Virus record (IMG/VR): IMGVR_UViG_3300024517_000102
Coordinates: 1 to 25,567 of that record
Length of the DNA stretch: 25,567 nt
Strand: one strand, 5' to 3'
From: a virus
Of this stretch, positions 2,558 to 25,227 are shown piece by piece. Every line of letters starts with the position of its first letter. Within the stretch, counting starts at the first letter, position 1. A program made the position numbers and the translations under genes. The notes beneath the pieces are model-generated. The model saw nothing but the letters and a program-made list of their open reading frames with translations. It had not been told where the DNA came from and ran no database searches.

Positions 2558-4126
2558 ATGGCTCCTCGATTTAAACCTAAACCTAAACCTAAAGTTAAAG
2601 TTAAAAGTACAGGAGTTACCAAACAGCTAAAGGCTGCTGCTAAAAGAGCAGGTTTTGTAAAAGCTAATGGAACAGCGGATGTAGCTGCTTACAGGAAACA
2701 TAAAGCAAAGATAGCAGCACTAGGAGGACTTCCTACAGGTCCATCCTCTAAAACAGATAAAACAGTAGCTGCTCGTCTAAATATTTCAGCAGCAGAGTTA
2801 GATAAACAACGGAAAGAAGCATTAACTAAAAGTTTAAATGCCGAAGCTAAAGCAAAAAATATATCTGTAGAAGAAGTTAAGAAACTTAGAGTAGCAAGAA
2901 AAATAAAAAGAGGCAAGACAGCTAAAAAAAGAGCATATACAGCAAATAAGGAAAATGTTAAAAAACTTACGGATATAGGAGTTGATGAATCATTAGCAAA
3001 ACAAGTGCTAGATCCTGACTTTACAAACTTACCTACAAAAAAACAAGTAGAATTAAAAACAAAAGTAGCAGAACAAAAAGCATCTTTTAAAAGGAAACCA
3101 ACAATTGTTTCTACTGCTGATAAACCTTTACATGTTGCAAGAGAGGCTCCTGAAGGACAAGATCCAGTTAGATTAAAGCAAATAAAAGAAACACGTAAAT
3201 TTAAAGATCAAAAACGAAAATTAGTAAGTGCTAGGAATAAAGTAAGGAGAGTTGAAACAAAACTTAAAAAATTAATTAGTAGTAAAAAGAATGTTAAAGC
3301 TAATCAAAATAAATTAAAAAATACACAGGAAGAACTTCAAGATCTTTCAGAAGCTATTTCAAATCAAACTCCTATTCCTGAAAGAAAATTGAGAGGATTG
3401 AATATAGCTTTAGATATAGTCTTAGAAGCTCCTGAACCAGTTAAAGTAGATGAAACTATACAAACTAAAGTTCCTCCTTCTATAAAAAGTGCTACAACTG
3501 TTACATCAAAAGTATGGCCTCTTAATAAAAAGATAATGAAAAAAGCTAAACAAAGTGATGCAGTTAAAAAAGATATAATAAGAACCCTTACTGATAAAAA
3601 AATTTCCTCAAGATTGGCTACTAAAGTAGCTAATGCTCAATCATTAACTAAGGCAGAGATAAATAAATTAAAAAAGATTGGAGTAAATTATACGTATGGT
3701 GAACCCGGATCAGCCCGTGCGCCTACTCCTCTAAAAAAATTAACAGCAAGAGAAAAAGATTTACAGAAAATTACTGGAGATCCTACTCCAGAAAAATGGC
3801 CTTCTTTAGAAAAGCTACAAACATTATTAGGACATGCCAAAGTAGGGCCAGTTAAAAGAGGTACTGGTAAAACTGGTGGAGGAAAAGGTAAAATACATAT
3901 CGGTAATTTAACTTCTACACAAGTTCAAGAATTAATAAGAGGAAAAGCTTTAACTAGAGAACAGGCAGATGAAATAGAAAAAATAATAAAAGATCCTAAA
4001 TCAGAATTATCAGTAAGAAAAAAAGGTGGTACTGTATATCGTAAAACAGGCGGTCAAGTTTCTAGAGGAACAGGGGCTGCTCTTCGTGGATTTGGTAAAG
4101 CTACTTATTCACATAAACTTTATTAA
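2558..4126 (+). CDS. Large Lys-rich protein with C-terminal KKGG/GGQV tag (522 aa)
   Basis: It starts at ATG 2558, two bases after the previous stop, with only weak ribosome-binding sequence (overlap of a TTAATC). The N-terminus is a KPKPKPKVKVK string, followed by long Lys/Arg/Ala helices of likely coiled-coil character, for example VRRVETKLKKLISSKKNV around residues 227-245. There is no Cys or membrane segment. The C-terminus has KKGGTVYRKTGGQVSRGTG (codons from 4019) and ends GFGKATYSHKLY. Similar endings occur in marine-phage proteins, as far as I recall. The strong positive charge and large size would suit a DNA-condensing, head-internal protein. That function is inference; nothing in it resembles a known nucleoid protein. 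Confidence 0.75.
   Translation: MAPRFKPKPKPKVKVKSTGVTKQLKAAAKRAGFVKANGTADVAAYRKHKAKIAALGGLPTGPSSKTDKTVAARLNISAAELDKQRKEALTKSLNAEAKAKNISVEEVKKLRVARKIKRGKTAKKRAYTANKENVKKLTDIGVDESLAKQVLDPDFTNLPTKKQVELKTKVAEQKASFKRKPTIVSTADKPLHVAREAPEGQDPVRLKQIKETRKFKDQKRKLVSARNKVRRVETKLKKLISSKKNVKANQNKLKNTQEELQDLSEAISNQTPIPERKLRGLNIALDIVLEAPEPVKVDETIQTKVPPSIKSATTVTSKVWPLNKKIMKKAKQSDAVKKDIIRTLTDKKISSRLATKVANAQSLTKAEINKLKKIGVNYTYGEPGSARAPTPLKKLTAREKDLQKITGDPTPEKWPSLEKLQTLLGHAKVGPVKRGTGKTGGGKGKIHIGNLTSTQVQELIRGKALTREQADEIEKIIKDPKSELSVRKKGGTVYRKTGGQVSRGTGAALRGFGKATYSHKLY
2576..2605 (+). repeat. Hexamer repeats encoding KPKPKVKVK
   Basis: Three tandem CCTAAA units (2576-2593) run into two GTTAAA units (2594-2605). 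The array lies inside the 522-residue gene's first codons and produces the alternating Lys-Pro/Lys-Val string, so it is explained by protein composition. It could vary in copy number by slippage. Confidence 0.7.
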
Positions 4127-4138
4127 AGGGAGTTAAAA

Positions 4139-4429
4139 ATGGCAGGTATGACAAGAGTAGGACTCTCACCAGCAGAAATGGCAAGGGCTGGTACGATGTC
4201 AGAAGAAGACCGTCTTCGTTACATGAAGAAGGGCGGTAAAGTCGGTAAGAAAAAACAAGGTTATAAAGCCCGGAAAGATGAATCGATTGCTATGAGGGTT
4301 AAGAAGAAACGTACCAAGAAACAACTCAAGGAAAGTCGAGATGAGTCTTACGGTAAGCCCGGTAAAGGTAAAGGTAAAGGAAAGATAAATCGTTCTGGGG
4401 CTGCTTTAGTTGCTTCCTCCTATGATTAA
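4139..4429 (+). CDS. Small basic protein with KKGGKV motif, ends ASSYD (96 aa)
   Basis: ATG 4139 has AAAGGGA (4125-4131) upstream. The N-terminus is MAGMTRVGLSPAEMARAGTM; the next part, DRLRYMKKGGKVGKKKQGY (motif at 4226-4243), carries the same K-K-G-G-K-V core as the other cassette proteins. A Lys-rich body follows with repeated GKGKGKGK, and the ending is SGAALVASSYD, like the AGYE/EGYD ends of its neighbours. No catalytic features. It overlaps the next gene by eight bases. Probable role as for the other tagged basic proteins, unknown. Confidence 0.7.
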   Translation: MAGMTRVGLSPAEMARAGTMSEEDRLRYMKKGGKVGKKKQGYKARKDESIAMRVKKKRTKKQLKESRDESYGKPGKGKGKGKINRSGAALVASSYD

Positions 4430-4899: not shown

Positions 4900-5097
4900 A
4901 TGATTGATTATAAACATTTAAAAGATGTTAAATTAAATTATATTAAACATCTTAGGTTTACATGGTTTGAAAGTATCAGAGGAATGTTGGTAATGATAGG
5001 ATTAATAATACATGGAGTATTCCCTTTTATCCTGACCAATATGTTTTCCTCTTATATTAAAAATGCTACAATAAGAATTAAAGAAATTGGTACATAG
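4900..5097 (+). CDS. DUF6356-like small membrane protein (65 aa)
   Basis: ATG 4900 follows AGGAG (4890-4894). The protein is MIDYKHLKDVKLNYIKHLRF, followed by one hydrophobic segment at about residues 26-48 (GMLVMIGLIIHGVFPFILTN). The combination of a short HL/R-rich lead, a helix and I-H-G-V-F-P-F is what I recognise from DUF6356, a small membrane family seen in marine phages and alphaproteobacteria; the function is unknown. It would be an inner-membrane protein with a small cytoplasmic N-terminus. The cysteine-rich gene follows five bases after the stop. Confidence 0.7.
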   Translation: MIDYKHLKDVKLNYIKHLRFTWFESIRGMLVMIGLIIHGVFPFILTNMFSSYIKNATIRIKEIGT

Positions 5098-5102
5098 GGA
5101 AA

Positions 5103-5255
5103 GTGGAAACAATAAGTCATGTTTGCATACATTGCGAACACTCCTGTCATTGCGATATGATGTGTTCTTTTCATGAAGATAGTAAAATGTGTAAATGTGA
5201 TGACTGTAATTGCAGACCCTCTGATTGGGGCGCACCTACAGAGTATATGGAATAG
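5103..5255 (+). CDS. Metallothionein-like Cys/His-rich protein (50 aa, GTG start)
   Basis: This short frame lies between the DUF6356-like gene and the tail adaptor. GTG 5103 is the only start that keeps all cysteines: the upstream in-frame stop is at 5079-5081 and the next ATGs are at 5157 and 5160. AGGGA (5096-5100) is a close Shine-Dalgarno. Nine Cys (8, 11, 15, 17, 21, 30, 32, 35, 37) and five His (6, 10, 13, 16, 24) fall in the first 37 residues. The cluster CKCDDCNC (30-37) is C-x-C-x-x-C-x-C, the spacing of the N-terminal cluster in the bacterial metallothionein SmtA. Expected role: binding Zn, Cu or other soft metals in the cytoplasm. Alternatives are a zinc-knuckle regulator or a structural zinc protein. 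The motif is directly visible; the function is inference. Confidence 0.65.
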   Translation: METISHVCIHCEHSCHCDMMCSFHEDSKMCKCDDCNCRPSDWGAPTEYME

Positions 5256-5266
5256 GAAGGAATAGA

Positions 5267-5944
5267 ATGGCAGTATCAGGTACATATAATTTTAATCTGG
5301 ATATAGATCAGGTTATTCAAGAAGCTACTGAAATGATTGGTGGTGAGGATACGCTTGGACATACCCCAGAATCTGCTAGACGTTCTATTAATCTGATGTT
5401 AAGGGATTGGCAGAATAGGGGCATTCTTCTTTGGACGACAAGTACTACGGCTGTTACAGTAGCTGCTTCCGTAGCAGACTATTCTTTAAGTAGCTCTACA
5501 ATTAATGTTATGGAAGCTACAACCCGTAGAGATAATACGGATATTAAAATTACTAGAATTACTCCTGAAGAATATCTACTTATCCCGGCAAAAACTCAGA
5601 CAGGAAGAGCTTCCCAGTATAGTATCAGGAGAGGAAGAGATAATCCTGTTATGTCTATATGGCCTATACCAGAAAATTCTACTGATATTCTTAGGATGGA
5701 AATTGTAAGTGAAGTTGAGGATGTGGATAAGTCTGCTATACAGAATGCAGATACTCCTAAAAGATTTCTACCTGCACTTACCTGTGGTCTGTCTTACTAC
5801 TTATCTATGAAAAGACCACTTGTACCAGATACTAAAATTGCAATGTTAAAAGCAAACTATGAGGAGATATTAGGAAGGGCAATGGAAGAAGACAGGGAAA
5901 GAGCTAGTATCTATCTTCTGCCCAGACTGACATTTTATAATTAG
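5267..5944 (+). CDS. Tail adaptor, P22 gp4-like (225 aa)
   Basis: The start is ATG 5267, with AGGAAGG (5255-5261) upstream. The N-terminal helical part (DIDQVIQEATEMIGGEDTLGH, then ESARRSINLMLRDWQNRGI) has the pattern of P22 gp4-like tail accessory factors: a helical bundle with a LN.ML.DW...G motif. The middle is beta-type (TTAVTVAASVADYSL), and the C-terminal half is helical (LPALTCGLSYYLSMKRPL, then EEILGRAMEEDRE). It would attach below the portal and join the nozzle to the head, completing the neck of a short tail. It is followed at two bases by the Cys-motif gene and further on by the nozzle. Confident of the class, less so of the exact family. Confidence 0.7.
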   Translation: MAVSGTYNFNLDIDQVIQEATEMIGGEDTLGHTPESARRSINLMLRDWQNRGILLWTTSTTAVTVAASVADYSLSSSTINVMEATTRRDNTDIKITRITPEEYLLIPAKTQTGRASQYSIRRGRDNPVMSIWPIPENSTDILRMEIVSEVEDVDKSAIQNADTPKRFLPALTCGLSYYLSMKRPLVPDTKIAMLKANYEEILGRAMEEDRERASIYLLPRLTFYN

Positions 5945-5946
5945 AT

Positions 5947-6222
5947 ATGGCAACACAACGAAGAGCATTAGCAATGTGTGATACATGTGGGTTTGTTTAT
6001 CCGCATAGAGTTATGAGATTAAATAGTTATGGAATGTTGGTATGCCCTCAAGACTTTGAAGGACAATATGATTTAAAGAATAATCCTCAGAATAAAGTAC
6101 CAAGAGTAAAAGATAACCCTGCTATTAGAAATCCCAGACCAGATAATGGTGGAAGAAATATTGCATGGAATAATGCTTCTACTACATGGGATGAGACAGA
6201 AAGGCTTTGGCAACAGATATGA
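5947..6222 (+). CDS. Small structural protein with zinc-ribbon-type CxxC (91 aa)
   Basis: ATG 5947 starts two bases after the adaptor's stop. The protein begins MATQRRALAMCDTCGFVYP and continues to VCPQDFEGQYD. C-x-x-C near residue 11 and a third Cys before PQDFEG match a small phage family (C..CG..y....R.....G..VCP.DFEG) that I have seen in tail regions of short-tailed phages. Only three Cys are present, so a classical four-Cys zinc ribbon is incomplete; a His (HRVM) could supply the fourth ligand. The C-terminal half is polar and Pro/Asn-rich. Its stop overlaps the fibre gene's ATG (ATGA). The likely role is an adaptor in the tail; that is inference. Confidence 0.65.
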   Translation: MATQRRALAMCDTCGFVYPHRVMRLNSYGMLVCPQDFEGQYDLKNNPQNKVPRVKDNPAIRNPRPDNGGRNIAWNNASTTWDETERLWQQI

Positions 6223-7898
6223 CAGATTTAACAGGAAAATTAATATCCAATACCTATAAGGATTTATTACAGGTTAACTCCAGTGCATCTAATGGTGGTA
6301 TTACAAATGCTCTGACGAACATACAATCAGGTAATGGAACTAATACGGCATTAAAACTTGCTACTAATAAAGGACAGATAACTGGAACATTCGGAGTATC
6401 AGGTAATACAAGTATTATAGGTGGTCTATATATAAGTCAGAATGTATGTGCTAGTGCTTTCTTTGGCGATGGCTCAAATATTACAGGCATTCCAATTAGT
6501 GGGAATATCTCAGTAGGTAATGCTACTATAGCTGGTAATCTTTATGTAAGTGGAACTACAAGTATTACTGGTGCTGCTGTTCTACATTCTACAGCTACTA
6601 TATCTGGAGCTACTGGCTTTCTAGGGACAGTCAGGGTAAGTGGAGCTACTTCTTTAGAATCTACTGTAGTAATGAAAGATACTGTTACTATTACTGGTAA
6701 CTCTGGATTTTTAGGAACTCTCAGGGTAAGTGGAGCTACCAGTTTAGAAGCGGCTGTTGTTATGAAAAGTACAGCAACTGTAAGTGGAGCCGCTGGATTT
6801 CTAAGCACAGTCAGAGTTAGTGGTAATACAACTATAGGCGGTACTCTGGATGTACTTGGGAATGTATGTCTGGGAGGAAACGTAACTGTAAAAGGAGATG
6901 TCCATGTAAGTAGTAAAGTTTGTGCCAGTGCTTTCTTTGGCGATGGTTCGAATATTACAGGTATTCCGATTAGTGGAAATATCTCAGTAGGTAATGCTAC
7001 TATAGCTGGTAATCTTTATGTGAGTGGGACAACAAGTATTACAGGAGCAGCAGTTCTTAAGTCTACAGCTACTGTATCAGGTAATGTAGGATTTCTTGGG
7101 ACAGCCAGAGTAGCTGGAGCTACTTCTCTTGAAGGTGCTGTAGTAATGGCTGATACTGCAACTATTACTGGTAATACAGGATTTCTGGGAACAGTAAGAG
7201 TATCTGGAGCTACTAGTTTGGAAGCAGCCGTAGTTATGAAAAGTACGGCTACTGTATCTGGAGCAGCAGGATTTCTGGGAACAGTCCGGGTAAGCGGTAA
7301 TACGACTATTGGAGGTACACTTGATGTATTAGGAAACGTATGTCTAGGCGGTAATGTAACTGTTAAGGGTGATGTACATGTAAGTAGCAAGGTTTGTGCT
7401 TCTGCTTTCTTCGGGGATGGCTCTAATATAACTGGAATACCTATATCAGGTAATATATCAGTAGGTAATGCTACCATAGGAGGAAACCTATATGTAGCAG
7501 GTACAGCCACAGTATCAGGTAATGCGGCTTTCTTGGGACAGATAGCTCTTTCTAAATCAGCAGCAGCCTCTATACACACAACAGCTATCAATGGTGTAAC
7601 TTCTGTATCCCTTAATTTTGGAACAGCACAGAATTTCCTGACTACAGTTACAGCAGCCCATACAATGGCTCAACCAACGAATTGTAGAAAGGGACAAGTA
7701 GGAAGTATTTTCTTTGTACAGTCAGGAGGAAGTGGAACTCTCTCTTGGAATGCTGCTTGGAAATTCCCGGCAGGAACTGATCCAACCTTTTCCACATCTA
7801 ATGGAGCAGTAGACAGACTCGATTATATTGTTGCTTCAATATCCAGTGATGGTGCTGGTGACAATATTCAGGCAATCTTATCACAGGAATATAGTTAA
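6219..7898 (+). CDS. Tail fibre protein with 158-residue repeats (559 aa)
   Basis: ATG 6219 overlaps the upstream TGA (6220-6222). After a short head (MTDLTGKLISNTYKDLLQVN), the protein is built from Gly/Ser/Thr/Val-rich beta repeats. Units begin at Cys 77, 235 and 393, exactly 158 residues apart: two full copies and a short third. Each begins CASAFFGDGSNITGIPISGN and contains two 30-residue sub-repeats beginning T[VL]RVSGATSLE. GDGSN-type motifs of this kind are common in marine-phage tail fibres and probably form a trimeric beta-stalk. From residue 452 a C-terminal domain (HTMAQPTN..KGQVGSIFFVQ, WKFPAGTDP) matches the end of the fibre at 9473. Function: host recognition. Confidence 0.8.
   Translation: MTDLTGKLISNTYKDLLQVNSSASNGGITNALTNIQSGNGTNTALKLATNKGQITGTFGVSGNTSIIGGLYISQNVCASAFFGDGSNITGIPISGNISVGNATIAGNLYVSGTTSITGAAVLHSTATISGATGFLGTVRVSGATSLESTVVMKDTVTITGNSGFLGTLRVSGATSLEAAVVMKSTATVSGAAGFLSTVRVSGNTTIGGTLDVLGNVCLGGNVTVKGDVHVSSKVCASAFFGDGSNITGIPISGNISVGNATIAGNLYVSGTTSITGAAVLKSTATVSGNVGFLGTARVAGATSLEGAVVMADTATITGNTGFLGTVRVSGATSLEAAVVMKSTATVSGAAGFLGTVRVSGNTTIGGTLDVLGNVCLGGNVTVKGDVHVSSKVCASAFFGDGSNITGIPISGNISVGNATIGGNLYVAGTATVSGNAAFLGQIALSKSAAASIHTTAINGVTSVSLNFGTAQNFLTTVTAAHTMAQPTNCRKGQVGSIFFVQSGGSGTLSWNAAWKFPAGTDPTFSTSNGAVDRLDYIVASISSDGAGDNIQAILSQEYS
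6447..7497 (+). repeat. 474-base coding repeat in the tail fibre (two full and one short copy)
   Basis: Copy boundaries taken at the TGT codon are 6447, 6921 and 7395. The protein copies 1 and 2 differ at roughly 13 of 158 residues by my count, while DNA differs mostly at third codon positions. Copy 3 covers about 35 residues before the sequence departs. This is a long in-frame duplication inside a fibre gene. Confidence 0.85.
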
Positions 7899-9472: not shown

Positions 9473-10402
9473 ATGGCTAGTACATATACAACAAATCTTC
9501 GCCTGACTAAACAAGGGGATGGAGACAATCCAAATACATGGGGTGAAGTTCTCAATAATGTTATTAGCCTTGTTGATCAGGCTGTAGCATCCTATACCAC
9601 AGTTTCTCTGGGATCTGCTGCTACCGTCACGCTTACTGAAAATCTGGGAAGTAGTGATCAGTCTCGCTCTGCTATACTGGAATTTAAAGGATCAATAGGA
9701 TCTGCTGCTACGTCTATCTTTGTTCTTATCCCTAACGCACCTAAAACTTATGCTATTAGAAATGTAGTTTCAGCTAACACAACAGCAACTGATGCTGTTA
9801 TTTTAAGAGTGGCAGGTAATGCAGGTGTAACAGTAGGAAGCGGAAGTGGTTACTATATAACAAATGGAACGTCTGTCTTTTCTGTAGTTACTCCTACAGG
9901 TACAGCCGCTTCCAGAAATGTAGGGGTTTGTGCTACTGAAATTCCTGATACATCTCTAGCTGATATAAGATATGTACAAACTTCCGTATCCAGTACTATT
10001 GTAGCTGAGAAAACATTTACAGCTTCGGTTATCTTTACCAGTGCAGTTAGAATGGAGGGACTAGTATCTTTATCAGGTGCTGTTAAATCCCATATAACAA
10101 CTCTTACAGATGCGGCTTCAGTAGCTGTAGATTTTAATGATGCTAATATATTTATGGTAACTCTGGGTGGTAACAGAACACTTGCTGCTCCCAGTAATGC
10201 TACTACAGGACAAACAGGAAGTATATATGTAATACAGGATGGTACTGGAAGTAGAACTTTAAGTTATAATAACGCTTGGAAATTCCCTGCTGGATCTGTA
10301 CCTGTTGCTACTACTACTGCTTCTGCTGTAGACCTTGTAGTTTACAGTGCCAGAAGCGCAACCACAATTGATGCTGTAATGTTGAAAAACTTTACGAGAT
10401 AA
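9473..10402 (+). CDS. Tail fibre or fibre-like protein (309 aa)
   Basis: ATG 9473 is preceded by GGAGTAATATAA. The N-terminus MASTYTTNLRLTKQGDGDN continues TWGEVLNNVISLVDQAVASY, a familiar start of marine-phage tail fibres (the virion-attachment part). The middle is beta-rich. Residues 206-309 match the end of the repeat fibre at 6219: shared positions include the P(S/T)N...GQ.GSI run, and WKFPAG (here in NNAWKFPAGSVP). It may therefore be a second fibre with the same tip domain, or a short fibre that shares an assembly or folding domain. It lacks the 158-residue repeats. Confidence 0.8.
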   Translation: MASTYTTNLRLTKQGDGDNPNTWGEVLNNVISLVDQAVASYTTVSLGSAATVTLTENLGSSDQSRSAILEFKGSIGSAATSIFVLIPNAPKTYAIRNVVSANTTATDAVILRVAGNAGVTVGSGSGYYITNGTSVFSVVTPTGTAASRNVGVCATEIPDTSLADIRYVQTSVSSTIVAEKTFTASVIFTSAVRMEGLVSLSGAVKSHITTLTDAASVAVDFNDANIFMVTLGGNRTLAAPSNATTGQTGSIYVIQDGTGSRTLSYNNAWKFPAGSVPVATTTASAVDLVVYSARSATTIDAVMLKNFTR

Positions 10403-10405
10403 TAC

Positions 10406-12556
10406 ATGACTGCCAAGCTTGCAAAATTTGATTTCAATCAAGGGTTTAATAGAGAAACTACTCAGTATGCTGAAGAAGGTAACTGGTTTGATGGTGATCG
10501 TGTAAGGTTTCGTGCTGGCAGGCCAGAGAATATAAGAGGATATGAAACAAAAGTATCGACTGCATTTGATGGATCAGCCAGAGATCTGATTGCATGGAAA
10601 GATAACAGCAATAAGAAGAGGGCTATCTTTGGTACACCTGATAAGTTATACGAACATAATGGAGATACTATTACTGATATTACTCCTATTACTACGATTG
10701 TAACCCTGACTAACTGTTTCGGTACAAGTGCAGGAACAACCAGAGTATGCTGTTCTGATGGATCACATGGAAGACAAAAGAATGATTGGGTTTTATTTAC
10801 TTCGGCAGCTACTTTTGGAAGTGATGTGAGCCTAACAGGGAATGTATATCAGATAACTTCTATTGTAAATACAAATGTTTTTACGATATCTATTACAAGT
10901 AATGCAGCAGCTACTTCTACTCAGGCAGGATCAGCCAGTTTTAATTACTATATTGCTACAGGAACAAGTGTAGCTGCACAAGGAGTAGGATATGGAGCTT
11001 CTGACTACAATGCGGCAGACCCTGTATCAGTGGGTCTTAGCAAGATTACAGCTACTGGTGGTAATGCGCTTGTTACTGTTTCCTGTGCTTCTGCTCATGG
11101 TGGTGTGGCTAATGATTTCGTAGTATTTAAAAATACTTCCATAGATTCTGTGGCTGCTACAATAGGCGGTAATCTAAATTTAACTAAGTCAGCAGCAGGA
11201 GGTCCAGAGTTTACTATTGTATCTGTTAATGGTACACAGGTTATTGTAAGTGCAGGAGCTAATGCAAGTGCCAGCGGAGATGTAACATCTTCTCTTAATA
11301 TGACAGCTCTGATCTATAAGCAGACAGATGGAGGAGGATCAGGAAGAGCTTGGGATACTGAAGCTTCAGCAGATGCTACTGATTTGGCTCTGGATATAGC
11401 GCAATGGAGTATGGATAACTGGGGAGAAGATGTCTTATTAAATCGTAGAGGAAGTAATATATATTATTTCCAGACTGCTCTTTCAACTACGCCAATGAGA
11501 GCAACAACTGTCACAACATCCCCTATCAGTGTAAACTCTCTGATTGTCTCTCCAAACGACAGACATGTAGTTGCATTGGGAGCAAATGAATTTAGTCCTA
11601 CTGCTACTGTAAGTGGAACATTTAATCCTATGGTTGTCAGATGGTCTGATCAGGATAATAGAACTAATTGGGTTCCCTCAGTAAGTTCTACGGCAGGTGA
11701 GGTTGTCCTGACAGACGGTACTCGTATTGTAGGAGCAGTCAGATCAAAGAATGCTATCAACATATGGACAGATAACTCTTTATGGCTGATGGAATTTACT
11801 GGTCCTCCCTTTACATTTAAGTTCCAACAGGCAGGAACAAACTGTGGACTGATAGGACCACATGCAGGGATCGATTATAATGGTGTAACTTACTGGATGG
11901 GATTTGATAACTTCTATGCCAATACAGGACAGGTAGAAGTACTGGATTGTACAGTCAGAAGGTTTGTCTTTGATAGACTTAATACAACCTATTATGATAA
12001 AGTATATACAGGAATTAATTCGGAGTTTAAGGAGATTATATGGCTTTATGTTTCTGATACTGCCACAGAATGTGATAGTTATGTAGTCTTTTCTCCTGAA
12101 GAAAACTATTGGGTATATGGAAATACATTCTTTACAACCTTCAGGGATAGGGAGATATTTGGTAATACAATAACTACGGGAGCAACAACAACAGGAAACT
12201 TCTTATTTAATAATGAACCAGCAGGAGTGTTTGATGGGGATGGGGAAACACTAATTTCTTTTGTAGAGTCTGCTGATTTCGATGTGGATGATGGTAATGC
12301 TATTATGTATATGAGTAGGATTATACCTGACTTTGATTTAAGTACAGGTAAAATCAAATTACATCTGACAAGTAAACAGTTTCCTGAAAGTACTGAGTCG
12401 ATAACAAAAGAGTTTGATATAACCAACACAACTAATAAAGTAGATTTTAGAGCTAGAGGAAGGCAAGCGAAGATTAGGGTATCTTGTGATTCTAACAATG
12501 CCAGTTGGAGGTGGGGATCTGTAAGGCTGGCATTACAAGGAGACGGTGGAAGATAA
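10406..12556 (+). CDS. Tail nozzle / stabilisation protein, P22 gp10-like (716 aa)
   Basis: ATG 10406 lies 3 bases after the fibre's stop. The N-terminus FDFNQGFNRETTQYAEEGNW, then DGDRVRFRAGRPENIRGY, has the widely shared phage signature G(i/f)...NT.Y..EG.W.D.D.VRFR.G.PE...G. Further in are KRAIFGTPDKLYEHNGD and IVGAVRSKNAINIWTDNSLW, typical of the beta-propeller-like nozzle (P22 gp10 or T7 gp12 type). At about 700 residues it fits the family. It would form the hexameric tube end beneath the adaptor ring, closing the packaged DNA. It follows both fibre genes, with two small tail-type genes after it. Confidence 0.75.
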   Translation: MTAKLAKFDFNQGFNRETTQYAEEGNWFDGDRVRFRAGRPENIRGYETKVSTAFDGSARDLIAWKDNSNKKRAIFGTPDKLYEHNGDTITDITPITTIVTLTNCFGTSAGTTRVCCSDGSHGRQKNDWVLFTSAATFGSDVSLTGNVYQITSIVNTNVFTISITSNAAATSTQAGSASFNYYIATGTSVAAQGVGYGASDYNAADPVSVGLSKITATGGNALVTVSCASAHGGVANDFVVFKNTSIDSVAATIGGNLNLTKSAAGGPEFTIVSVNGTQVIVSAGANASASGDVTSSLNMTALIYKQTDGGGSGRAWDTEASADATDLALDIAQWSMDNWGEDVLLNRRGSNIYYFQTALSTTPMRATTVTTSPISVNSLIVSPNDRHVVALGANEFSPTATVSGTFNPMVVRWSDQDNRTNWVPSVSSTAGEVVLTDGTRIVGAVRSKNAINIWTDNSLWLMEFTGPPFTFKFQQAGTNCGLIGPHAGIDYNGVTYWMGFDNFYANTGQVEVLDCTVRRFVFDRLNTTYYDKVYTGINSEFKEIIWLYVSDTATECDSYVVFSPEENYWVYGNTFFTTFRDREIFGNTITTGATTTGNFLFNNEPAGVFDGDGETLISFVESADFDVDDGNAIMYMSRIIPDFDLSTGKIKLHLTSKQFPESTESITKEFDITNTTNKVDFRARGRQAKIRVSCDSNNASWRWGSVRLALQGDGGR

Positions 12557-16296: not shown

Positions 16297-19200
16297 ATGC
16301 CAATAGATGACTCTGATATTTTTGAAGGATTTGAAACACAAACTGTAGTTCCTGTTTCTCCAATCGTTGACCACTCTGATATTTTTAAAGGATTTGAAGA
16401 GACATCTGAGCCAGTACCTAAGATTACTAAACCTATATCTGAAGTTACTGAAGATTACTCTGATATTTTTGAAGGATTTGAAGAGGCATCTGAGTCAGTA
16501 CCTGAAGTTGAAACTGAAGTTAAAACTAAAGTTACTGAAGATTACTCTGATATTTTTGAAGGTTTTGAAGAGATAGCTGTACCTGAATCTGTAGTTAAAA
16601 CTAAAGTTGAAACTGAACTTCCTACTAAAGCAAAAACATTTGTAGAGCAAATCACAGATCTGTTTACAAAAACTTCTGATGAAAAAAAGTCATTATATAA
16701 GTTTCCTCATGCAGAACATATGGCTAAGGCTTTAGGTGTGTACGAAGAGCCTGATGTATCTACAGCCGAACCCGAACTTGTAGGTTTTGATCCTTCTGGT
16801 ATGGATCGTTATGAAAAGTTAACTGTTAAACCTCGTTGGCAGACTAAAAAAAGAACTAAACAATCCCCATATGAAAGAACTATGGCTGAGTTAGCTATTG
16901 ATCCTGAATGGAATAAGTGGGGAAAAATTATCTATGACTACGAACAGAAAAATAAAGGTCCACTCTCTGCTCTTGAACTCCCGGCTGATATAGTTATAGA
17001 TAAAGAAACTTTTGGAGAGACTGCTCTTGTAGGATCTCCTACTGATATTAAAATGGGTACGAAGATGAATTACGGAGAGTGGCTTCAGGAAAGATTTTCT
17101 AAAGGATTCTTTGATCTTACTAGTCTAGGTATGACATTATCAAAAGCTAGTGAATTTCCTGATGAGATTAAAGATACATGGCGAAAAGCTATAAATATGG
17201 AAATGAGAACTGATTGGGATAAGGATTCTTTTAAGAGAGGTGCCTATCATACCATTTCAGATCCAACTATGCTTGCTCCTGCCGTTGCAATTAAAGTATT
17301 TCAATTACTTGCACGAACATTAGGAGGAAAGGCTGCTAGTCAAGCAGGTAAACATCTATTATTAGGACAGCTTAAAAAAAGTAAGATTAAAGAAGGTATT
17401 ATTGGTATTGCCAGTAAGTATTCTCCAGTAACTTCTGTTCAAAAGAAACTTATGTCTGAGTTTGATATTCCTAGAAAAGTAGCTCTTAAAGCAGCCAAGG
17501 GAAATGACGCAGCACTAAAAGAAATTTCAAATATCGTAAGTAGAGAAAGTGTAACTAAATTTTTAACTGATGCTCGTATCTTATCTAATAAATGGAGAGC
17601 CGCTATTGCTCCTCTTGGTGGAGCGTCATGGTCTACAACAGCAGATCTGCTTACACAATCTCTTCATATGCAATTACAAATGGCATCACCTAAATTAAAG
17701 GCAGAGTATGAGCAACAACTAGCTTTAGGACAGCCTGTTCCCAAAGCTATGCGTAAACACATGGAAGCTTTTATAAAATCTCCTGAAGAAATAGTAATGA
17801 ATAGGGATGTCATAGTTCGTATTGTAGATGACATGCTAAAATCTAAAGGGCCAGAAGCTCAAGGTTTTAGAACAGAAGCTAAGAAATCTGCTACAGAATT
17901 TTTTGCTAAGGAACACGGAAGAAAGCCTACACAAAAAGAGATAGATAAAATTTTTAAAGAGTCTATAATGGATGAATATATGAGCGATGCTTTGAAAGTA
18001 GCAGAAAAAGAAGGTCTATTTAATTTAGAAAGTCCTGCTAATTTCATGGAATGGTTTAAACAAATAGATTGGGAGCGTACTGGTGAAGCAACCTTAGTAG
18101 GATTAGGAGTTGGTGGAATTTTAGGTACTGGTGCTTATGTACTGGGAAAAGGATTTAATAGGTGGGCAGCAAGTAGAAGAGCAAAGAAAGATGAAATGGC
18201 TCTGTCAATAAAACACGCTAATATTTCAGATGAAATTGAAAAGTTAAAAAATAAGCCTGATACTAAACCAATTGTAACCAGAGTTATTGGAGAGATAGCA
18301 GATGAAGGACCAAGTTATTCTAATGAATGGACACCCCTCCCTCTAGCACCTACCTCTGATAAACTTATTATAAGTGGTTATATTCCTAAAGGATCTACTA
18401 AAGAATATATATTTAATGAAGCTGTTAAAATTAATAACGCATTAACTACTAAAGGTATTTTTAATTTAGGTCTTGAAGAAGGAACTACTAAAAGACAGAT
18501 AGCGGAAATAGTAAATAAATTTGAGTTGGCTAATATAAAATTAACTCCAATAAGTAAGACTTCTTTTGAAGGTAGAAAAATAAAAGAGAGAGAGTTATCA
18601 GATACTGGCAGACCTATAGAAGAAGGAGATCTACAGATTGAAACTACTACTGAAGTTACACCTTCTGAGAAAGTAGTTACTGAAGTTGAAGTTTCTCCAG
18701 AAGGAGGAGCTATGGAAGGCCCGATACCAAAGTTTCTAACTAATGAGGGAGATGCTCCTCCTCCACCTCCTCCAAAAGTAACTCCTCCCGGTGAAGATCC
18801 ACCTCCTGTTGGTGGTCAACCTCTTATACCACAAAGACATAAAGTAAAAGAACGACTAGGTAATGTTAATACTTTTGGTGCTAGGATGTTGACTACTACA
18901 GGATCATTACCAAAACCAATAGCTGAAGCAACTAAAGCAAGAATGAGAAGAGTAAGAGGAATAAGACTTGAGGTAAGAAAAGCTCTTAGAGATATTAAAA
19001 AAGCAAAAAGACTTACTCAGACAACTAATAAAGATTTTGATTTTGCTATTAATGAAGGGGTAATGGAGATAAAAGATACTGAAGGTAATGTACTAAGAAG
19101 AATACATCCTGAAATGCAAGAAAGTTTAAATAAACTATACGGTATAATACAGAGGAATGAAGATACTATGAATGATCTTCTAGGTTTAAAAGGAGATCAG

Positions 19201-24657: not shown

Positions 24658-24901
24658 AGTAAGACACCAATCCATTAATTAATAAGACAAGAGAGACAGC
24701 ATTGATAACTAGCAAAGCTCTGTCATTCCAGATGATAGCCACAATAAACCATCCAAACATTCCAATGGCATGAACCATCAGGTTATAAGGATAAATGTTA
24801 TTACTGGTCAGGATAACTCCTCCTACCAGTACAACCGAAGCTATCCATTTAATATACCAATCAAGAGTATGAGTTGGTGTTTGTTTATTTAATTTAGTCA
24901 T
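24647..24901 (-). CDS. DUF6552-like small membrane protein (84 aa)
   Basis: ATG at 24901 overlaps the Fe-S carrier's TGA (ATGA); the longer frame upstream has no better start. After MTKLNKQTPTHTLDWYIKW there are three hydrophobic helices: IASVVLVGGVILTS, LMVHAIGMFGWFIVAIIW and ALLVINAVSLVLLINGLVS. The DWY.KW entry plus W(N/R)(D/E).AL...N...S..L pattern is one I recognise from a small membrane family of cyanophages and other marine phages (DUF6552). The function is unknown. It is likely in the inner membrane. Confidence 0.7.
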   Translation of the reverse strand: MTKLNKQTPTHTLDWYIKWIASVVLVGGVILTSNNIYPYNLMVHAIGMFGWFIVAIIWNDRALLVINAVSLVLLINGLVSYYVK

Positions 24902-25227
24902 ACCTGAAAACTCTCTCCGCATCCGCACATGGATTCTACATTAGGGTTATCAATCATAAGACGCTGACCAAAGATATCCTTCTTATAGTCTACCGTCATT
25001 CCTGCTACATAAACACTGGAGATATTATCAATGACAAGCTTACCTGTATCCAGATCTATAATGAAGTCATCGATAATGTCATCGAACTCTTCCTCAGTGA
25101 CAAGCTGCCAATCATAGGTAAAGCCAGAGCATCCTCCGCTGTTAACTGCTAGTCGAATAGCAGCTACCTTATTCTCTGCAACAACAGAAGATAGATGTAT
25201 GTCTGCGTTATCAGTCAGCTTTATCAT
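24898..25227 (-). CDS. A-type iron-sulfur carrier, IscA/HesB family (109 aa)
   Basis: ATG at 25227. Three conserved cysteines are visible: C33 in SGGCSGFTYDW, and C101 and C103 in MCGCGESF at the end (C-x67-C-G-C), the ligand set of IscA, SufA and HesB proteins. The central beta sandwich is clear (LVIDNISSVYVAGMTVDYKK). Length is typical. It would receive an Fe-S cluster and pass it to host or phage apoproteins, acting in the cytoplasm. A-type carriers are known as accessory metabolic genes in marine phage genomes. It is cotranscribed with a holin and TerS, overlapping the 38-residue gene by 17 bases. Specificity (IscA, SufA or ErpA) cannot be told. Confidence 0.85.
   Translation of the reverse strand: MIKLTDNADIHLSSVVAENKVAAIRLAVNSGGCSGFTYDWQLVTEEEFDDIIDDFIIDLDTGKLVIDNISSVYVAGMTVDYKKDIFGQRLMIDNPNVESMCGCGESFQV

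Follow-up and report, generated by a model that had tools for sequence, protein, structure and literature searches.

Does the short frame at 5103-5255 of this viral DNA encode a protein, and what might so cysteine-rich a product do for a phage? We analyzed the frame within the window, by which we mean the whole 25,567-nucleotide stretch. The features at and around the locus are as follows.

4900..5097, plus strand: upstream neighbour, a 65-aa protein with one hydrophobic stretch
5103..5255, plus strand: putative gene for a 50-aa metallothionein-like protein, from a GTG start through the TAG stop; backed by its own relatives and pN/pS
5124..5165, plus strand: N-terminal Cys/His cluster, residues 8-21, C-I-H-C-E-H-S-C-H-C-D-M-M-C
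5166..5189, plus strand: linker with H24, residues 22-29; length and sequence vary among relatives
5190..5213, plus strand: C-terminal Cys cluster, residues 30-37, C-K-C-D-D-C-N-C (CxCxxCxC)
5214..5252, plus strand: C-terminal tail without Cys, RPSDWGAPTEYME
5267..5944, plus strand: downstream neighbour, phrog_12985; Cys-independent anchor

A small gene in the gap between two others

Translation of 5103-5255 (plus strand) gave METISHVCIHCEHSCHCDMMCSFHEDSKMCKCDDCNCRPSDWGAPTEYME, with Cys at positions 8, 11, 15, 17, 21, 30, 32, 35 and 37 and His at positions 6, 10, 13, 16 and 24; the nine Cys and five His that an earlier note had counted in residues 1-37 are thus present. Cys makes up 18% of the 50 residues and 30% of residues 8-37, and the N-terminal cluster holds C8, C11, H13, C15, H16, C17 and C21, and also H10. 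The frame fills the gap between its neighbours, as the same note had observed, starting 5 bases past the upstream stop (5097) and ending 11 bases before the likely downstream ATG at 5267. The downstream gene was listed from a TTG at 5225, but the ATG at 5267 is the likelier start since relatives align only from about that Met. The 65-aa upstream product is probably a membrane protein, judging by its hydrophobic stretch. Further upstream, the window carries four basic ORFs (1579-1962, 1962-2108, 2558-4126 and 4139-4429) with similar short motifs at or near their ends, such as K-x-GGQVxxxGYE/D or AALVASSYD. On the other side, the product of 6207-7898 is fibre-like, contains long repeats (VCASAFFGDGSNITGIPISGNISVGNATIAGNLYVSGT...) in its interior and ends in a domain that resembles the C-terminal part of 9473-10402.

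A frame this short, with a GTG start and a weak ribosome site (GGGAAA), might be open by chance. The eight-Cys DNA pattern occurred once in the window and in none of 100 dinucleotide shuffles, in keeping with the earlier claim that random sequence would hardly produce it. Scanning IMG/VR with the window protein as a peptide query recovered 18 loci at 66-90% identity, and a profile scan recovered 26. The frame was open and all nine Cys were present in all of these loci, and C8, C11, H13, C15, H16, C17, C21 and the C-terminal cluster were invariant in 16 window-type sequences; the linker carried a 5-residue insertion in one type (L033/L036/L037), and H24 was replaced by Tyr in two sequences (L010 and L031). 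We also sampled the site independently of Cys by fetching 80 loci through the neighbour gene (5225-5944) and inspecting the upstream sequence. The gene was carried by 17 of the 80, all open with nine Cys, and no such motif was seen at the site in about 34 loci for which 1 kb or more of upstream sequence was available. The gene is therefore accessory: a phage either keeps it whole or does not have it. Two outcomes that the earlier note had said would count against it, homologues lacking the Cys pattern and frames broken in close relatives, did not occur among the homologues found.

Substitution patterns were evaluated by pairwise Nei-Gojobori pN/pS for ten window-type sequences and four sequences of a 47-aa type. 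The window type gave 0.31 in frame; its other plus frames gave 0.85-1.16 and its minus-strand frames 0.46-1.36. The 47-aa type gave 0.16 in frame, versus 0.72-1.47 for its other plus frames. Silent TGT/TGC switches were seen at five of the nine Cys codons, and Cys was never lost. These sequence comparisons indicate that 5103-5255 is a real protein-coding gene under purifying selection. Homologues, which are intact in at least three phage groups, already refute a chance frame, the probability of which we consider negligible.

At seven loci (L279-L285) the site of the window gene was occupied by a different 36-aa frame (2695-2805 in L280) with nine Cys and two His, MCNNEECSNSHCTCDPCICRIENLCECCNDHQAVGP. 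In L280 this frame has a good AGGAG site upstream and is preceded by another Cys-rich frame at 2543-2683 (MITCKNCGYDSHCG...CKYCRCGKCTIPDW). The 36-aa frame may encode an unrelated metal-binding peptide that has taken the place of the window gene.

A wide family in marine phages

With the window protein, tblastn against phages returned noise alone (E 2-4). With one of its relatives as query, the search reached Pelagibacter phage HTVC041P at E 3, and that match proved real through its own relatives. The HTVC041P site (OR420753.1), flanked by gp29 and the capsid gene, holds an unannotated TTG frame at 17805-17975 (LAQKSRKCKQCHHDCHCKMPLHADEYGTCVCDECKCKP...). Used as a query, this ORF recovered gp42 of Gjalp EXVC020P and a match in Eyrgjafa EXVC018P (E 8e-7), together with 16 IMG/VR loci. 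Pattern scans for the Cys spacing brought the family to at least 136 unique proteins, at least 131 of them complete with a start codon, and thinning at 88% identity left a non-redundant set of 104 members. The shared pattern is C-x2-C-x-[H/C]-x-C-H-C-x(11-17)-C-x-C-x2-C-x-C. Cultured or named members matched the family profile at E 1e-16 to 7e-16, and a close relative of the window gene (G001) matched at 4e-12. The window gene belongs to a large phage family, in which it forms an outlying branch, a point absent from the earlier note.

Members are 32-72 residues long (median 51 aa, 19% Cys), and this small size is probably why so wide a family is missing from Pfam, PHROGs and NCBIfam. The window protein has three aromatic residues; 44 of the 104 members have one. 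The C-terminal tails, which differ by branch (ECxxCQ, ENEV, FWKxMS or none), are modular. In most members the genes immediately upstream encode DNA polymerase A and a 216-aa protein, and the polymerase gene was within reach in 60 of the 104. A second branch lies ahead of the capsid gene in Autographiviridae pelagiphages. The window type has a membrane-protein gene and a structural gene as neighbours, and the L013 type reverses the order, with the Cys gene before the membrane-protein gene. The earlier note expected default annotation to skip such a frame, which holds for the relatives in HTVC041P and KT997847, where no CDS is given, but not for Gjalp gp42, which is annotated as a hypothetical protein.

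Gjalp gp42 (QLF88234.1) and the HTVC041P ORF share with the window protein the family profile (E 1e-16), the eight Cys, H13, H16 and a linker His; unlike it, they have no C21, directly precede the capsid gene and end in an FWKxMS tail where the window has DWGAPTEYME. An unannotated ORF of the uncultured phage Deep1-GF2-KM23-C739 (KT997847.1) also belongs to the family (E 7e-16), and differs from the window protein in having Cys at position 13, an ECESCQ tail and 11 Cys.

Two further loci were observed alongside the family. The 216-aa gene that adjoins the DNA polymerase in most members (L183, 4886-5536) has a relative in many cyanophages; its HTVC027P relative bears a PurM (phosphoribosylaminoimidazole synthetase) annotation, seemingly a doubtful one for a protein of that size that cyanophages also carry widely. 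A pelagiphage-type locus (L055, 2324-2563) has seemingly lost the N-terminal half of the family and kept one CxCxxCxC (AKKCKCKKCKCKKSKKKITEKEFWKIMSKRFYK).

The recorded host of HTVC041P, Gjalp and Eyrgjafa is Ca. Pelagibacter ubique, and HTVC041P and Gjalp are complete cultured phages. The family search found no member in phages HTVC023P and HTVC027P. Scanning 84,980 species genomes for the Cys/His pattern gave 23 matches, two of them real. One lies on a contig of a Pelagibacteraceae single-cell genome that carries a helicase, DNA polymerase A, phage-like genes and a gene whose product shares 61% identity with a protein of HTVC023P/HTVC027P; the other lies on a 16-kb contig of a Parcubacteria metagenome-assembled genome with matches to phage genes. 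Among 397 Pelagibacterales genomes two matched at E<=0.01, one being the same single-cell genome and the other marginal at E 0.008. Since the clear bacterial matches are limited to these two contigs, the family is essentially viral. A different protein of the window, encoded at 10406-12556, is about 30% identical both to HTVC023P/HTVC027P and to a gammaproteobacterial phage.

Ligand-like conservation and a possible role in metal handling

Most of the 104 members had been fetched with His in the pattern, and a fair test of His conservation was therefore provided by a scan that fixed the eight Cys only. Among the matches listed, 35 loci gave 34 distinct cores with 8-9 Cys; other matches were rejected as low-complexity frames of repeat DNA with 13-29 Cys or stops. 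Position 13 was Cys in 20 cores and His in 14, and nothing else. The middle residue of the CxC and linker position 5 were each His in 34/34. The remaining free positions varied, except for an invariant Gly and a near-invariant Asp. In the set of 104, position 13 was His in 54 and Cys in 50, and the Cys and His at ligand sites totalled 11 in 97 members and 12 in seven. C8, C11, C15, H16, C17 and the CxCxxCxC were invariant in 102 members, most of which had been fetched by their Cys. A C-terminal CxxCQ accompanied Cys at position 13 in 40 of 50 members, versus 10 of 54 with His there. The window type reaches 11 sites through C21 in the linker together with H13 and H16, with H10 and H24 as extras. 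The family core thus holds about 11 potential ligands, near the number in SmtA. Only 17% of it is hydrophobic and its net charge is mostly negative, so that the fold probably comes from metal and binding to nucleic acid is unlikely.

Binding of a metal cluster is, on this pattern of conservation, highly probable, and the soft-metal binding that the earlier note had inferred appears by far the best reading of it. A secreted or virion-borne disulfide-rich peptide would also be rich in Cys, and Pfam profiles run against 105 family members, which gave no match of weight, came closest with GASA (best E 0.042, in 3 of 105 members). An interchange of Cys and His at position 13 and an invariant His make no sense for disulfides, Cys numbers are both odd and even (8, 9, 10, 11), and we found no signal peptide; we consider such a peptide very improbable.

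Zinc might instead only hold the shape of a small finger-like protein whose partner in take-over of the cell would be a nucleic acid or another protein, such as host RNA polymerase. The conserved non-ligand residues of the main-branch linker (Gly always, Asp in 31/34, Tyr in 23/34) offer a possible contact surface, the modular tails could be others, and most members adjoin replication genes. Against this, the core gives 11 of its roughly 30 residues to ligands and has little surface to spare, and the ligands are conserved together, where a finger would use one zinc per four ligands. CxC pairs typify clusters and not single-zinc fingers, the core charge is mostly negative, the window-branch linker varies in length and sequence, and genomic place varies by phage group. 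No Pfam zinc finger or zinc ribbon matched at cut-off (zinc_ribbon_16 reached E 0.4 in 1/11 members). A finger-like role is accordingly unlikely, though less so than a disulfide peptide, and we favor a phage protein that probably holds zinc or another soft metal in a thiolate cluster and works like a metallothionein.

In the mechanism we propose, the product, which has no signal sequence, would be a cytosolic peptide with its Cys and His folded around a small metal-thiolate cluster. The ligands would be the eight Cys common to the family, two His, and either a ninth Cys (C21 in the window type, position 13 in other branches) or a His standing in for it. SmtA binds four Zn (PMC10612145) and PflQ2 MT forms Zn3Cys9His (PMC7387436), and the expectation for the phage protein is therefore 3-4 Zn(II) (or Cd/Cu) on some 11 ligands. 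Metal, Zn preference and stoichiometry are inferred, zinc being preferred as the main metal because of the His ligands.

Less certainly, the peptide may act during infection as a buffer, storing zinc freed from dismantled host proteins and ribosomes and passing it on to phage zinc proteins as these are made. SAR11 cells infected by pelagiphages can end up with no ribosomes that can be detected, and HTVC027P makes such cells (PMC11066056); ribosomal L31/L33 form a mobilisable bacterial zinc store (PMC5007448). Together these reports suggest that infection may free zinc. HTVC027P yields ribosome-deprived cells without a family member, and the gene is thus not needed for that effect. Genomic context singles out no role, given that the gene adjoins DNA polymerase, capsid or tail genes depending on the phage. 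Buffering of zinc or other metal during infection we hold to be a tentative idea, with the balance slightly against it.

The earlier note had also tied the gene to an Fe-S carrier. We rejected this link, for the IscA-like gene (TIGR00049) is present in the window and one close relative and in none of the remaining 14 phage records searched for it, the majority of them carriers of the Cys gene. The carrier itself, at 24898-25227 on the minus strand, is of A type (94.6 bits against a cut-off of 58.8) and, among 16 records, was seen in window-type phages only.

Metallothioneins are known from cells, and SAR11 are among the most abundant bacteria of the sea. We found no paper on a phage or viral metallothionein among the open-access papers searched, with preprints and subscription journals outside that scope and priority accordingly uncertain, and no phage metallothionein family in curated family libraries. 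If metal binding holds, phages of SAR11 possess peptides dedicated to binding metal, and the handling of metal can be tested as a part of infection, directly so in the cultured carriers HTVC041P, Gjalp and Eyrgjafa (Ca. Pelagibacter). The broader proposal is a large phage-specific metallothionein family, distinct in its Cys/His architecture and lacking homologues in bacteria, found in abundant pelagiphages and related marine phages that actively manage the zinc of infected cells, possibly zinc from dismantled host ribosomes; for this we put the chances at about even.

Comparison with known metallothioneins

Single-sequence searches of Pfam, PHROGs and NCBIfam with the window protein gave no match. 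For the family, NCBIfam gave none, PHROGs gave scattered marginal matches only (best E 0.002), and a PDB sequence search with the broad profile gave none. The bacterial metallothionein profile PF02069 (Metallothio_Pro) matched 0/105 members at E<=1 and nothing in the window at E<=10; 4 of 14 control genomes matched, including Synechococcus elongatus, one of them above cut-off. Alignment by hhalign with the SmtA/PflQ2 MT sequences gave a probability of 9.0% for the broad family and 1.6% for the window type, with only the CxCxxCxC aligned; the PflQ2 MT sequence used there matches the PDB chain across the aligned stretch. Membership of, or descent from, the SmtA family is therefore not borne out, and we describe the protein as metallothionein-like in working and do not place it in the bacterial family.

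AlphaFold2 gave the window protein no confident fold (pLDDT 58.6), a low value that may also reflect limits of the method. A natural 32-aa member was modelled at pLDDT 74.0 without helix or long strand, and a Foldseek search of that model against the PDB found no match. The lack of a confident fold fits a fold made by metal and is not evidence by itself.

Like metallothioneins as a functional class, in which Cys makes up about 15-35%, the phage proteins are small, cytosolic and Cys-rich with CxC/CxxC clusters, and their CxC and CxxC are invariant. SmtA (PDB 1jjd) and PflQ2 MT (PDB 6gv6/6gv7) resemble the window protein in length (50-56 aa), in nine Cys plus His, in the CxCxxCxC, in cytosolic location and in a ligand number of nine Cys plus 1-2 His. 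The spacing noted earlier is exact, C30-x-C-x2-C-x-C37 corresponding to C9-x-C-x2-C-x-C16 of SmtA (sequence from 1jjd). The order of clusters is the inverse: the phage protein has C-x2-C-x3-C-x-C first and CxCxxCxC last and lacks YCxxxC, whereas the SmtA-type layout is an N-terminal CxCxxCxC, then YC(S)xxC and C-x(3-4)-CxC (YCSEAC and CGHTGCNC in SmtA). Classic animal metallothioneins differ from the phage protein in Cys content (18% here) and His content. SmtA is a host gene with an SmtB repressor, and the window gene is a phage gene. Convergence would be the simpler reading of the likeness to bacterial metallothioneins.
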